53,441 nucleotides of DNA from Candidatus Brocadia sp. GTDB lineage: Bacteria > Planctomycetota > Brocadiia > Brocadiales > Brocadiaceae. This document shows positions 207 through 15,156 of the stretch, piece by piece. Position 1 is the first letter of the stretch. Each line of letters opens with the position of its first letter. Position numbers and translations under genes: made by a program. The notes beneath the pieces are model-generated. The model saw only the letters and a program-made list of their open reading frames with translations. It ran no database searches and was not told the DNA's origin. The stretch covers positions 1-53,441 of the forward strand of contig SOEU01000023.1 in the NCBI GenBank assembly GCA_021646415.1. Reading direction: 5' to 3'.

Positions 207-705
207 TTATATTTAATTTATTCACTATTTCCGAGGGGTATGATGGTGGAAATACTCAAAGCGTTTATATAACTGCTATAACTAAAGAAATCAAGAAAAT
301 TATGTTTCTTAAATATTTCTCAGTAAATAGAACCTCTACCGAGCCCTTTTTTTAACCTCTCTTAATAGGGTCTTGAGGTTTTTAATCTTGCGGTTGAGGA
401 TGTTTTATATCAATCTGCCAACACCGATAGCCTGTAATGAGATGATTTTTCGAACCGGTAATTAAAAGTCATTTAAAGAACAAATAAATTTAAAAATACA
501 TTCAAAGAATTACTGTTTTCTCCGTCCTCTTATTTCACTTACAATATCATACGAAATCTGGTGTCTTCCGGAATTGTTCTGGAATTTGTCCAAATTCCCT
601 ACTGAGATGCTTCTGTTATGCCCTTGATTATACCTCTCATTTCTGTTACATTACCGTTAATTTTCAGGATTTGCCGTATAATATACATGCACATAGGAGT
701 AGTAA
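207..705. other. Intergenic region with no clear gene
   Basis: About 500 bases without a convincing gene. It contains the left copy of the ~115-bp direct repeat (374-490). A short open stretch at about 239-354 could be a gene scrap but has no recognisable start. A TATAAT-like box is at 677-682, 24 bases before the brnT start, without a good -35 partner. Confidence 0.5.
374..490. repeat. Left copy of the direct repeat flanking the BrnTA/nuclease island
   Basis: From TGAGGTTTTTAATCTTGCGG to AAATAAATT, this stretch matches 4780-4897 in the same orientation with scattered substitutions and one 1-base indel. Shared landmarks include GTTGAGGATGTTTTATATCA, ACCGATAG, CTGTAATGAGAT and CGAACCGGTA. Homology stops on both sides. 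The two copies bracket brnT, brnA and the two large downstream genes, so they may be the scar of an insertion or the substrate for loss of the module. Confidence 0.85.
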
Positions 706-1005
706 GTGCGTTATTATTTCGACTGGGACCCTAATAAGGCAAAAATAAACTTAAGAAAGCATAGGATCGGCTTTGAGCAGGCATCTGCTATTTTTCTTGA
801 TCCAAGAATGATAACCGTCTTCGACAGTGAGCATAGCGAATATGAAGACCGATGGGCTACAATTGGAATTGACAGGAATGGTATTTTGTTGGTTGTAGTA
901 CATACTTTCCAGCAGTTGGATGCCGACTGTTGCAAAATTAGAATTATTTCTGCCCGCAAGGCAACCAGAAAAGAATCAAAACAATATCAGGAGGAAAATA
1001 AATGA
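706..1005 (+). CDS. brnT: BrnT family type II toxin (ribonuclease)
   Basis: A 99-residue protein of the BrnT/DUF497 family, RelE-fold ribonucleases that block translation until bound by BrnA. The family signature is visible at the N-terminus: FDWDPNKAKINLRKHRIGFEQA (Asp-x-x-Lys, Asn, Lys-His, Phe). The usual IGIDRNGILLVVVHT core and a C-terminal IRIISARKAT segment follow. The length is normal for the family. The start is GTG at 706 with AGGAG at 695-699. The antitoxin start overlaps the stop by four bases (ATGA), the classic toxin-first order of this pair. No catalytic loss is apparent. It sits inside the direct-repeat-bounded island, where toxin-antitoxin pairs often stabilise accessory DNA. 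Confidence 0.9.
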   Translation: MRYYFDWDPNKAKINLRKHRIGFEQASAIFLDPRMITVFDSEHSEYEDRWATIGIDRNGILLVVVHTFQQLDADCCKIRIISARKATRKESKQYQEENK

Positions 1006-1205
1006 AAAAGGAATACGATTTTTCCAAAGGTGAGCGAGGTAAGTTTTATCGTCAAGATGCAGAATTGTATTTACCTATTTACATCGAGCCTGACATGATG
1101 GAAGTGTTAAGAAAATTCTCAAAAAAAAAAGGCGTCGAGGTTACAACAATAGTAAATGAATGGATAAAAAAAGACATATCCATAGTAGAAACAATAACAA
1201 AATAA
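1002..1205 (+). CDS. brnA: BrnA/CopG-like antitoxin
   Basis: A 67-residue partner of the BrnT toxin. The first part (MKKEYDFSKGERGKFYR) is the sequence common to CopG-like antitoxins found next to BrnT. The second part (IYIEPDMMEVLRKFSKKKG to TTIVNEWIKKDI) fits a ribbon-helix-helix DNA-binding fold. It overlaps brnT by ATGA and has AGGAGG upstream at about 990-995, inside brnT. Antitoxins of this type neutralise the toxin and repress their own promoter, so autoregulation is expected from the family. No operator palindrome was identified. Confidence 0.85.
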   Translation: MKKEYDFSKGERGKFYRQDAELYLPIYIEPDMMEVLRKFSKKKGVEVTTIVNEWIKKDISIVETITK

Positions 1206-1316
1206 CATATGACTAATCACTCCACAAGATGCGGTGATACTGCCGCAGTATCTGTGAGTTCAATCGTCGTATTGAATCATGATGAAAGTTTTATCCTACT
1301 CAAGAAGGCAATTAAA

Positions 1317-2513
1317 ATGAATACTCTGAGAAACGACCTTATTGTTGCCTTCCAAGAGGGCAATTTTCTTCAAGTCGTTTATGAAAAATCATTAAGCGAA
1401 CATGAAAGTGGTAATGATCTAGCAGATGAACTGGTAAGAATGCATAATGATGAGCTGCTTGATGTCGTTGCAGCTTTTAAAGCCTTGCGGAATAAGTCAG
1501 ACGCTGCGTATGACTTTTTTATGACCTGCAGCATTCTCGAAAAAGCTCTTCTACACCTCAATTCTCCTGTGCGACCGGTTATGGACTGTGTTCTTCATTT
1601 AGTGAAGGAGGCAGGCCAAAAGATGGCTGCGGATACACCCTTCGGCCCTTTTATTGACTTTTGTGCAACTGCGCCATCTCGCCCAAAAGAGTCTCTAAAT
1701 CAGATCGAAGCATCCATTGATCAATTTGCTCATTTACTAACACCTACTATTGTTGCCGGGGCTCGCATTGACACTAAATACTATCTCAATGAGGCCATTA
1801 GACTTACAGGGCATAAGAATATCGAGATTCGCAAAAGGGCTATCTTTTCTTTAGGAAGAATTCAATATCCACAGGGCACCAATTTATGTGAACTTGCACT
1901 TACCTGTTTAGAATTGTCTGGGACAAAAGAGACAGACGATCACCTTTTGGGTAATCTCATAAAATCTGCGTTCAGTTTATATAAACACGACAAGTCACAA
2001 GAAGAGCGTATCATTAATCTTATCAACCGTGCTTTGTTACAAGAAGGCGACTACGTTCTGCGCGCGGCGGCAGAATTATTCGGCTTTGATTTTAATGAAC
2101 TCCCCCAGGCCTTGCTGGATGTTCTCCTTGATCATCTACGGCGTGTTAGACCTCAGGACAAAGGCACACTGGATAACATTGACTATGGCTTAAAAAAATT
2201 AATTAAACGAGAAGATCCGACCAAAGGTATTGAGTTTTTAGAAGCCGTGCTAATAGCCAACCCCAATGACATACCAATGGGTATATTCGATAGCGTTATT
2301 CGAGAGCTTTGCAAGAACAACAATATACTTAACAAATTACTGACGAGGTGGTTTCTGCGGGGTGATAGGGTACTTTGCGAAGGTATACAGGAAGTAGTTA
2401 ATAATGCCCATAACCAAATTATGCTATTGAAGATAGATCCGTCTGAACTGGTTCCTATAGACCTAGTGCATATTGTTTTCCTTGCAAGAAAAGCCTCGGC
2501 TATTTATTCTTAA
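1317..2513 (+). CDS. Helical-repeat protein, N-terminal part (frameshifted gene)
   Basis: First part of a gene of unknown function that appears broken into two frames. I prefer the ATG at 1317 (MNTLRNDLIVAFQEG) with AAGG eight bases upstream. An in-frame ATG at 1209 has no ribosome site. The product (398 residues) is almost entirely helical. It has stretches such as IEIRKRAIFSLGRIQYPQGT and VLRAAAELFGFDFNEL that look like HEAT/ARM-type repeats, a protein-interaction scaffold. There is no signal peptide or membrane segment. At the 3' end the frame stops after LARKASAIYS. Adding one A to the run at about 2488-2492 continues the protein as KSLGYLFLKPVSVASIIIS into the next ORF. The intact product would be about 580 residues. 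It precedes a putative nuclease. Confidence 0.7.
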   Translation: MNTLRNDLIVAFQEGNFLQVVYEKSLSEHESGNDLADELVRMHNDELLDVVAAFKALRNKSDAAYDFFMTCSILEKALLHLNSPVRPVMDCVLHLVKEAGQKMAADTPFGPFIDFCATAPSRPKESLNQIEASIDQFAHLLTPTIVAGARIDTKYYLNEAIRLTGHKNIEIRKRAIFSLGRIQYPQGTNLCELALTCLELSGTKETDDHLLGNLIKSAFSLYKHDKSQEERIINLINRALLQEGDYVLRAAAELFGFDFNELPQALLDVLLDHLRRVRPQDKGTLDNIDYGLKKLIKREDPTKGIEFLEAVLIANPNDIPMGIFDSVIRELCKNNNILNKLLTRWFLRGDRVLCEGIQEVVNNAHNQIMLLKIDPSELVPIDLVHIVFLARKASAIYS

Positions 2514-2545
2514 AGCCAGTAAGTGTTGCAAGTATCATCATTTCT

Positions 2546-3058
2546 TTGATTCATCTTACCAACGATGCAGAAATACTGCAGCAGCTTGGCACTCTTTTGT
2601 TTGACCCCCTGCTCCTCAATTTCCCTGGCAAGATAAGAAATTTCCTAATCCAACAAGCGGAAAGTGAATCAGGGAAAACCAAAATAACAATTGAAAAGGC
2701 GCTTAAGATTTTTAATGAATATATGGATGATTTGAAATCAACCGGAGTAATTCCGGAGTTACATCCCTCGCAAGCACAGCGAGATGTACACAGACGGCAC
2801 TTTTCTCGGCTTATGTCAGAGTCATTTAAGGAGGCGAAGAAAAAATCTGTTTTATTGTCAGTGACTTCAAAGTCTGTATTGCTTTACGGCAGAAAGTCGA
2901 TCAATTACATTTACGGTACTGATGGTAAATCCAACAGAGTAGAAATTCCATTGCATAGCCACGGTACTGAAATGAAATTTCCACGATACGAAATTATTGA
3001 TCCTTTCGACTTAGATTATATGCTGAGGCTTTTTCGAGCGGAGAAGATAAAGGCATGA
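2546..3058 (+). CDS. C-terminal part of the frameshifted helical-repeat protein
   Basis: This 170-residue frame has only a TTG start (2546) and no ribosome site. The same frame is open upstream through KSLGYLFLKPVSVASIII, directly continuing the sense of the preceding gene, so it is best read as the other half of one protein. The region is helical at first (GKIRNFLIQQAES, ALKIFNEYMDDL). It ends in a basic and beta-rich stretch (KKKSVLLSVTSKSVLLYGRK, DPFDLDYMLRLFRAEK). The stop overlaps the next ATG (ATGA at 3055-3058), so the two genes are translationally coupled. Function unknown. Either the gene is inactivated, a -1 slip in the A-run restores it, or the read has a base missing. Confidence 0.7.
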   Translation: MIHLTNDAEILQQLGTLLFDPLLLNFPGKIRNFLIQQAESESGKTKITIEKALKIFNEYMDDLKSTGVIPELHPSQAQRDVHRRHFSRLMSESFKEAKKKSVLLSVTSKSVLLYGRKSINYIYGTDGKSNRVEIPLHSHGTEMKFPRYEIIDPFDLDYMLRLFRAEKIKA

Positions 3059-4749
3059 AGCTTATTATCAGACAATACTTGGCCTCACTCAAAGAGCGTG
3101 ATGAACTGGACGCGGTACTTCCAGACTTGTTGAGCCAGCTAGGGCTTAATGTCTATTCTCGTCCCAGAAGAGGAACCCGACAAGACGGAGTTGACGTAGC
3201 TGCTGTGGGCAGCCTTGATGGCGGAACAGAAAAGGTTTACTTGTTCTCAATCAAACCAGGGGATTTAACTCGTAGCTCTTGGGATGGAGATGCGGTTCAA
3301 TCCCTTCGTCCATCTCTCAATGAGATATTGGATGCTTATACTCCTAACCGACTGCCAAATGAACACAGGGATAAAGATATTGTAGTTTGCCTCTGCTTTG
3401 GTGGAGATATTCAAGAGGAGGTAAGGCCTCTCGTCGAAGGATATATAAAACAGATCAACCGGGAAAATCTGACGTTTGAAGAATGGAACGGAGACAAACT
3501 TGCCTCACTTATTTTATCAAACTTTTTACGTGAAGACTTATTGCCACAAAACGCCCGCTCGCAACTGCGCAAGTCGCTCGCGTTACTGGATGAACCTGAA
3601 ACATCCTATCAGCACTTTTCTGCCTTAATCAGATCACTTTCCAGTTCAGAAATTTCGGAAAGCACAAAGGACAAAGACCAGATCACAGCAATCCGTCAAA
3701 TAAATATTTGTCTCTGGATACTGTTTGCCTGGGCTCGTGATGCTGGTAACTTGGAATCGGCCTATCTCTCCAGCGAACTTACATTACTGCATGCCTGGGA
3801 AATTACAAGAAAATACATTGCTAAAACTACTAAAACTGCAAAGTCAGTCCGATCAGCATTCTTTTCTATATTATCCATCTATTGGCAAATTAGCTACGAG
3901 TACCTTGGCAAGAAAATTCTGCCGCATACCCATAAACGACATGCTTTATCGGCTGCAGTTCAAGCCCCGTGTAATTTAGACGTTAATCTGAAGTTATTTG
4001 ATGTATTAGGTCGATTAGCCATAGGCGGCATTTGGGCTTATTGGAAAACGCAGCAAATTGATATCAAAGAGACTGAAACTCTTGGAAAAATATGGAACGA
4101 GGTACACTCCTTTTCATGTGCGGTTAAACAACTAATTACGAATAATCCAACTTTATTCTCACCAATAAAAGATGACCAGGCCATAGACATATCAATTTGT
4201 GTGTTACTGCTAATTATCGACAAGAATAACCATGACTACATTAGAAAATGGCTTTCTGAACTCGTTGAGCGAGCAACCTTCTCTCACCAAATAAATAGCC
4301 AATATCCCTGCAATTTACGGAGCTATGCTGAGTTACTCGAACACCCACAACAAAATAGTGAAAATTATCATCAGGAAGTGACCGGTGGGAGCATCCTGTT
4401 CCCGATGATTGCCTTATATGCAGCACTGCTGGGTGATAATGAACTTTATAAACAAGTTCAGTCCATTAAAGAAAAACACCTAAGCCATTGCAACTTTCAG
4501 TTTTGGTATCCTGATGATAGTTCTGAAGAGTCCTTCTATACCAATAATAATGCACATGGCGCCACATTGTCCCATGCATGTATAGACCGCTGTATGGATG
4601 AGTTCAAAAGCCAGGCCTTTGTCGAATGTGAACACTCACCACACTTTGAAACACTGTCGGCCATTAAAACTGGTTTATGGCCAATTATTCTTGTGGCGTG
4701 TCGGCATTACCGTATCCCTTTACCCGTGCATTTGATGGGGTTTTCGTGA
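3055..4749 (+). CDS. Putative PD-(D/E)XK-like nuclease with helical C-terminus
   Basis: A 564-residue protein that I do not recognise as a named family. Residues 1-130 look like a restriction-endonuclease-type fold. A helix (LDAVLPDLLSQLGLNVYSRP) is followed by RRGTRQDGVDVAAVG, then a strand ending LFSIKPGD. The Asp of DGVDV and the Lys of SIK would be the metal-site residues of a degenerate D-(x)n-xxK motif, with Ser where Glu or Gln is usual. The next segment (DKDIVVCLCFGGDIQEEV) is another alpha/beta element. Residues ~190-564 are mainly helical with several Cys and His near the end. It starts inside the stop of the preceding gene (ATGA), so the two probably act together. Its place in a repeat-bounded island with a toxin-antitoxin pair suggests defence, which is inference. 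Confidence 0.6.
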   Translation: MKLIIRQYLASLKERDELDAVLPDLLSQLGLNVYSRPRRGTRQDGVDVAAVGSLDGGTEKVYLFSIKPGDLTRSSWDGDAVQSLRPSLNEILDAYTPNRLPNEHRDKDIVVCLCFGGDIQEEVRPLVEGYIKQINRENLTFEEWNGDKLASLILSNFLREDLLPQNARSQLRKSLALLDEPETSYQHFSALIRSLSSSEISESTKDKDQITAIRQINICLWILFAWARDAGNLESAYLSSELTLLHAWEITRKYIAKTTKTAKSVRSAFFSILSIYWQISYEYLGKKILPHTHKRHALSAAVQAPCNLDVNLKLFDVLGRLAIGGIWAYWKTQQIDIKETETLGKIWNEVHSFSCAVKQLITNNPTLFSPIKDDQAIDISICVLLLIIDKNNHDYIRKWLSELVERATFSHQINSQYPCNLRSYAELLEHPQQNSENYHQEVTGGSILFPMIALYAALLGDNELYKQVQSIKEKHLSHCNFQFWYPDDSSEESFYTNNNAHGATLSHACIDRCMDEFKSQAFVECEHSPHFETLSAIKTGLWPIILVACRHYRIPLPVHLMGFS

Positions 4750-4779
4750 ATCTGCACAAACATAACGGGGGCTTTCTGG

Positions 4780-4897
4780 TCAGGTTTTTGATGTTGCTGT
4801 TGAGGATGTTTTATATCAATCTACAAGCACCGATAGACTGTAATGAGATAGTTATTTCGAACCGGTAGTTAAAGGTCATTTAAGGAACACATAAATT
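4780..4897. repeat. Right copy of the direct repeat flanking the BrnTA/nuclease island
   Basis: Begins 30 bases after the nuclease stop and matches 374-490 in the same orientation, offset by 4406-4407 bases. The shared core runs from AGGTTTTT through GTTGAGGATGTTTTATATCA and CGAACCGGTA to ATAAATT. Sequences beyond the repeat differ between the two copies. A possible 63-codon frame overlapping it has no support as a gene. Confidence 0.85.
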
Positions 4898-14088: not shown

Positions 14089-14510
14089 ATGCCACAAAAG
14101 GTACAATCAATTTTTGACTTTGTTAGCAAAGGAGAGAATCCTGTGCAACAAGCTTGCTCCATAATAAAAAATTCTGGCAATGCAGACGAGCATCCAGCAG
14201 ACGTCTCTAAGTTGGGTCATAAGCCGAAACTACTGGACTGTCTTCGTGAATCTCTTGGTTGATGTCCTCACTTATGTATGGCGCTGGGCTGCGCCTGATG
14301 GAATGTCCGCGCTTGCGGGTTCAGGACATTGACTTTTCCTGCAACGAGATTCTTGGCCACAAAGATGTCAGCACAACGATGATCTACACCCATGTCTTGA
14401 ACAAAGGCGGTCATGGTGTCCGAAGTCCCGTCGACAGGTTGAAGGTCGGTTTATGCAGTCTGTATAAACCGGAACAGGCGATTAGAGAAACATACACAAA
14501 AGCTTTATAA
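14089..14510 (+). pseudogene. Integron-type tyrosine integrase remnant with two internal deletions
   Basis: Two frames carry collinear pieces of an integron integrase (IntI-like). Frame 1, 14089-14262, ends [14 protein letters not shown] and stop, the usual start of the N-terminal arm. Frame 2, from 14259, reads [22 protein letters not shown], which holds the first catalytic Arg and the surrounding box. It then jumps within DFSCNEI to [30 protein letters not shown], which holds the catalytic Tyr. Roughly 75 residues of the core-binding domain and about 120 residues of the catalytic domain are missing, including the middle His-Arg-His elements and the integron-specific insert. The protein cannot be active. 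It sits just upstream of a cassette with an attC-like end. Confidence 0.8.
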
Positions 14511-14529
14511 AAAACAAGTTACAATGCGT

Positions 14530-14556
14530 TATAAGAAGGCACGACAACTTCTTATA
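14530..14556. repeat. Hairpin between integrase remnant and cassette
   Basis: TATAAGAAG (14530-14538) and CTTCTTATA (14548-14556) form a perfect 9-base inverted repeat with a 9-base loop, between the integrase remnant and the cassette boundary. It may be a terminator-like structure or part of a degenerate recombination region. Confidence 0.4.
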
Positions 14557-14632
14557 TATTGAAACAGTCTGTGTTTGCCGTTTTATATAGACTGTATAAT
14601 CAATGTTAGCAGCCGCACTGGTGAGGGCCACA

Positions 14633-14998
14633 ATGCCGGAAATTGGAAAGACCATCAGATTGGAAGTAGTTGCCGAAAACGTAGCGAACAGCGAGGACTT
14701 GAAAGTATTTCTTGATGGAAGTACACGATCCGAAACGAGACTTCATTCCGCAATAATAGGTATTGGCACCTACCAAGCAGGCTGGAGATGGTCACTGCAC
14801 GCCGGGATGCAAACTGCTCGCCCCTCAGAAAATCATGTTGGGTACGTTCTTTCCGGTCGTATGTTGATTCAGGACGCTAATGGAATCGAACGCGAAGTCG
14901 GCCCCGGAGAGGCATTCGAAGTGGGTCCTGGGCACGATGCATGGGTAATTGGCAACGAGCCTTGTGTCGCGCTCGATTTCACCCATTGTGGAAACTAA
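14633..14998 (+). CDS. Cupin-domain protein carried as an integron cassette gene
   Basis: A 121-residue single-domain cupin. Visible signatures are HAGMQTARPSENHVGYVLSGRM (cupin motif 1, with the His and Glu usual for metal binding) and VGPGEAFEVGPGHDAWVIGNEP (motif 2, with GPGHDAW). Small cupins of this type are often metal-binding isomerases, dioxygenase-like proteins or ligand sensors, and the substrate cannot be told. I chose ATG 14633 because GAGG lies six bases upstream. An ATG at 14603 overlaps the GTTAGC cassette junction itself. Base composition is richer in G and C than the neighbours, as expected for acquired DNA. The gene lies between a GTTAGC boundary (14605-14610) and an attC-like site. 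Confidence 0.8.
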   Translation: MPEIGKTIRLEVVAENVANSEDLKVFLDGSTRSETRLHSAIIGIGTYQAGWRWSLHAGMQTARPSENHVGYVLSGRMLIQDANGIEREVGPGEAFEVGPGHDAWVIGNEPCVALDFTHCGN

Positions 14999-15034
14999 AC
15001 ATCGTTGGTCGCTGGGTATGTCAGAACTCTCGAA

Positions 15035-15133
15035 GGCGCTAACAGTGCGACCAACACGGACGCTTGACCGCGTTGCGCCTTCGCTACCACTTCGACCCGC
15101 CGCCGTCAAGTGCCGGTTATCGCAACGTTATGC
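15035..15133 (+). other. attC-like integron recombination site
   Basis: A ~99-base imperfect inverted repeat. The left arm is GGCGCTAACAGTGCGA...GCTTGAC and the right arm GTCAAG...GCAACGTTATGCC. The outer halves pair as TAAC/GTTA with TGCGA/TCGCA next to them, and the inner halves pair as CTTGAC/GTCAAG, with mismatches or bulged bases in one arm as in folded attC sites. The right end ACGTTATGC fits the R' core (GTTRRRY) loosely, with recombination expected between G15127 and T15128. It lies 36 bases after the cupin stop, the normal place for an attC closing a cassette. Confidence 0.65.
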
Positions 15134-15156
15134 CGCTCTCTCGGAGTTAAACGTCC

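Follow-up and report, generated by a model that had tools for sequence, protein, structure and literature searches.

We have found that the first 5 kb of a contig from a Candidatus Brocadia genome (G000; the window analysed here is the contig stretch of 53,441 nucleotides) carries what is, by sequence comparison, a known defence system and a known toxin-antitoxin (TA) pair within a defence/TA island, the two lying between directly repeated copies of a sequence that we call R. On our best reading it is R that makes the locus unusual, the module itself appearing ordinary. We favour, with a probability of roughly 55%, the interpretation that R is an old island junction beside which accessory modules would have been gained, exchanged and lost through ordinary homologous recombination, so that R probably marks a slot where defence and TA genes come and go. 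Support comes from the identities of the genes, a related genome with a single R at the same site, a second genome whose R-bordered module lacks the defence system, and the divergence of the repeats themselves.

A TA pair and the Olokun genes between two copies of R

The features of the locus, in order of their starting positions in the window, are as follows.

374..490 (alignable from 376), + strand: R1, the left repeat copy; 88% identical to 4782-4897 and 94% to the copy in genome G003
491..559 (similarity 504-548), - strand: 3'-end remnant of a small antitoxin-like gene; intact as a 65-aa ORF in genome G002
706..1005, + strand: brnT, ribonuclease toxin; PF04365 E 5e-27, above cut-off; PDB 7vd7 toxin E 1.5e-18
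1002..1205, + strand: brnA-like CopG antitoxin; assigned from position and overlap with brnT, with a weak PF12441 match (E 0.013, below cut-off)
1209..2513, likely start ATG 1318, + strand: oloA, N-terminal part; PADLOC OloA E 1e-59, profile 8-413
1267..4762, + strand: Olokun-containing segment missing in G002, whose R-brnTA-R arrangement joins the equivalent of 1266 directly to R
2546..3058, + strand: oloA, C-terminal part, in a different frame; PADLOC OloA E 1.2e-38, profile 440-593
3055..4749, + strand: oloB, full length; PADLOC OloB E 1.6e-203, profile 1-549 of 556
4763..4897 (core 4782-4897), + strand: R2, the right repeat copy; shares 96% identity with the lone R beside the nosR-like gene of genome G005

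A sequence-only reading of this stretch had placed exactly four genes between the repeats, namely a toxin, an antitoxin, a helical-repeat gene and a nuclease-like gene. The toxin, a putative antitoxin and two further genes are indeed there, but they occupy five open frames, oloA being split by a frameshift, and PADLOC identifies the last two as oloA and oloB, with the nuclease activity of OloB unconfirmed. The same reading proposed a defence-type module, which is borne out by the Olokun defence genes and the TA pair between the repeats, and called it uncharacterised, which it is not: its third and fourth genes belong to Olokun, counted among the already described defence systems in PMC10121019. 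It was correct that no transposase or integrase lies inside; no ORF of the module gave a transposase match and the module contains no integrase. Our literature search on OloA and OloB returned nothing relevant.

The TA genes resemble known type II BrnT/BrnA systems in having a brnT family match and an overlapping downstream CopG-like gene, and differ from them in a weak antitoxin match that falls short of the cut-off. As for Olokun, the locus shares with the known anti-phage system both genes, their order and their strand, with a full-length OloB; it differs in its frameshifted oloA, its brnTA neighbour and the flanking copies of R. The oloA reading frame is not intact, a frame check putting the shift near 2490, where an assembly error is possible. 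Since oloA is shifted here and is found intact next to oloB in G015 (a genome of another genus in the same family) and in IMG/VR contigs, we infer that the frameshift has probably cost the copy in the window its Olokun function, barring an error in the assembly.

OloB is rare, being found in two of 294 genomes sampled across the phylum, and Olokun is now placed in an anammox planctomycete, beside a TA pair. When OloB was modelled from four sequences (mean pLDDT 69), no PDB match was significant and most were to helical-repeat proteins; conserved G-V-D and S-x-K positions in the vicinity of the N terminus are only suggestive of a nuclease role. The sequence-only reading had named related strains with the genes but no repeats as a finding that would count against it; oloAB relatives that lack R do occur, in G015 and on IMG/VR contigs. 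The locus in G015 (L056, C3:255000-273000) has oloAB at 35% identity, without R, near large accessory and phage-like genes. On the IMG/VR contigs L147, L148 and L149 the two genes are intact and adjacent beside phage-like genes, which suggests prophages as one carrier of Olokun.

Extent, distribution and age of R

The two repeats (376-490 and 4782-4897) align in the same orientation at 88% identity over 116 columns, with an E value of about 1e-35, in agreement with the earlier description of repeats of about 115 bp that frame the module. Similarity was also said to end at both edges. The R2 block kept in other genomes starts further to the left, at about 4763, 14 bp past the oloB stop codon, and across copies the length of R is 115-135 bases. 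Searching all 42 contigs of the genome (3.81 Mb) returned just these two copies, the next matches being at chance level (E 0.7 or worse), which rules R out as a common dispersed repeat. When 117 genomes were searched with a profile, eight clear copies were found in five of them, all Ca. Brocadia: two each in G000, G002 and G005 and one each in G003 and G006, with a fragment in G008. We found no copy of R on phage, plasmid or viral contigs.

The copies of R lie in several chromosomal contexts and mostly adjoin TA or defence genes. In G003 a HEPN_Swt1 gene is followed after 2 bp by R and then by a DUF433/DUF5615 pair, the DUF433 gene starting 24 bp downstream of R. In G005 one R lies upstream of the same nosR-like gene as R2, the module is absent, and a DUF5677 gene and a short ORF stand on the left. 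The site is thus an imperfect form of the single-copy empty site that had been suggested as something to look for: the single R and the right-hand gene are as expected, the left neighbour is different. A clean empty site was also sought at an ABC-transporter locus, where G007 has the right flank without R and the left sides fail to align. Between the two R copies of G002 are a small antitoxin-like gene, one that is SocA-like and a brnTA remnant, and a phoU-like gene lies on the right. G002 and the window match as far as the point equivalent to 1266, just past brnA, where G002 passes straight into R, so that Olokun in the window sits exactly between homologies that G002 has joined. The sequence to the right of R1 (504-548) is likewise similar to sequence adjoining R in both G002 and G005.

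R2 and its orthologue in G005 are 96% identical, R1 and R2 88%, and R1 and the G003 copy 94%. By this measure the divergence of R1 and R2 is older than the split between G000 and G005, and it would fit either an old R-module-R arrangement lost by G005 or an incoming module that brought its own R. As R1 and R2 are more diverged from each other than R2 is from its G005 orthologue, they are not products of one recent insertion. The sequence-only reading had raised the idea of a target duplication, in which R would have arisen as a long target-site duplication on insertion of the module. The direct orientation of the copies, one at each edge of the module, is what such an event would leave, but the divergence pattern runs against it, G005 being free of the module, and other genomes carry R beside different genes. 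We regard this origin as exceedingly unlikely, and the identities rule out a recent duplication, barring a later replacement of R2.

Possible origins of R

R is non-coding and more than 100 bp of it is conserved in five genomes, and its position upstream of the DUF433 gene in G003 might be that of a conserved regulatory or untranslated region travelling with its neighbour genes. An Rfam search with R gave no match, however, R folded as RNA or as single-stranded DNA showed no structure beyond that of shuffled sequences, and the flanking genes vary in kind and orientation, all of which makes this reading improbable. R as a remnant of a protein-coding gene was considered and rejected, its frames holding stops in several copies when judged by eye.

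A second possibility, suggested earlier as the ends of a non-autonomous element, is that R descends from an IS3-family insertion sequence, as a relic or a MITE-like derivative. Its right half would be a degenerate IS left end, and two such relics would enclose the module in a decayed composite-like unit. Positions 53-99 of the R profile match, in the same place, IS3-type left ends just upstream of orfA in several Brocadiaceae (about 75-80% identity over 33-45 bp), and the G008 fragment retains just the IS-like half of R. Against this, the matching IS copies form one family and so amount to a single observation of modest significance, shuffled R scores equally well at some IS loci, and the left half of R (at least 52 bp) has no IS counterpart. 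R resembles the left terminal region of an IS3-family element at these positions but, unlike such an element, has neither a transposase nor a second end, its other half being unrelated; no transposase was recognised among the ORFs of the module, and R is present in only one or two copies per genome. We consider an IS3 origin, and an element end as the source of the weak resemblance of one half of R to an IS3-family left end, possible but doubtful.

The length of R is like that of an integron attC site and R often begins a few bases past a stop codon, in both of which it is like the sites of integron cassettes; a complete integron integrase is moreover encoded in G000 and its relatives. R lacks the attC-like fold, however. 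As single-stranded DNA it folds no better than shuffles (z +0.4 to +1.6), while an attC-like control site in the window (15025-15135) folds from end to end (z -2.05 for one strand and -0.53 for the other), and no complete integrase was found adjoining R. A strict scan for RYYYAAC/GTTRRRY gave zero hits in R and zero in the attC-like control and, being non-discriminating, was left unused. We rejected R as a convincing attC on the comparison of folds, and find it very unlikely that the module is a cassette. The control site belongs to a decayed integron in the window (14089-15135), which consists of integrase pieces (14089-14510), a cupin-like ORF (14603-14998) and the attC-like site at about 15025-15135. 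The complete integrase gene of G000 lies on another contig (C12:65263-66204; 476 bits, above the curated cut-off) and has relatives in G003, G004, G002 and G005.

On the comparisons made here, R is a genuine island junction sequence, restricted to the genus and of uncertain origin.

The island setting and a proposed turnover beside R

The right flank of R2 is a gene for an Fe-S protein that we name nosR-like, with strong matches in 35 of the 39 genomes searched, G000 included. The window begins at a contig end, and positions 1 to about 212 belong to a multicopy repeat that is probably an IS and ends here; because the contig starts in this repeat, the true left neighbour of R1 lies outside the window. 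The repeat at 1-212 is common to several contig ends of G000 and to many Brocadiaceae genomes. In G003 and G007 a gene that we call aroF-like from its sequence lies to the left of the nosR-like gene. The aroF-like gene of G000 is found close to where contig C5 begins, and this contig is collinear with the island of G005 between the aroF-like and nosR-like genes, the shared content being a TPR-like gene (also named from sequence), a MazE-like antitoxin and an addiction-module antitoxin. Given this collinearity and a contig that starts in a repeat, the module would lie at the right-hand end of a TA-rich island, split in the assembly by the multicopy repeat. In G000 and G005 the MazE-like part of the island is at the nosR-like locus, in G002 it follows priA; islands of this kind are therefore found at more than one position in the chromosome. 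They recall the E. coli defence islands at core-gene hotspots (PMC10121019), where the defence and TA content likewise varies between conserved genes; unlike those islands, the module here is without an integrase and its junction is marked by a genus-specific repeat.

We propose that the accessory unit, a BrnT/BrnA-like TA pair followed by a two-gene Olokun system with a broken oloA, occupies the right-hand end of the TA-rich island between aroF-like and nosR-like genes, and that R would be an old junction of such islands, restricted to Ca. Brocadia, whose left genes and right flanks vary by species. Recombination between copies of R, among them copies on DNA from relatives, could bring in, exchange or remove the modules that R borders, and the BrnTA pair may act as a stabiliser that favours retention of the unit. 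The idea, raised earlier, that R serves as a substrate for recombination is consistent with the comparisons. Because no hybrid R, excised circle or pair of strains with the same flanks was found, we infer recombination at R from the comparisons, which show varying content beside a constant R. The slot model is limited by there being only eight copies of R and by the contig-end repeat that hides the left flank of R1. We also considered that R is an attachment or exchange site of an unrecognised anammox cassette exchange, in which a recombinase encoded elsewhere would insert defence and TA genes directly to the left of R as a dedicated slot; this we think unlikely. Under the junction reading that we prefer, R offers a sequence tag for finding variable defence/TA slots in Ca. 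Brocadia, and exchange at R, if true, would show the turnover of small defence modules that have no recombinase of their own.

We also observed an integrase-bearing element straight after priA in another genome (L168, G001 C84:12700-18700). The 3' end of priA is repeated (about 41 bp) at the far side of the element, the copies lying at 172-214 and 3913-3955 of the locus, and this repeat is a probable att site and insertion hotspot.
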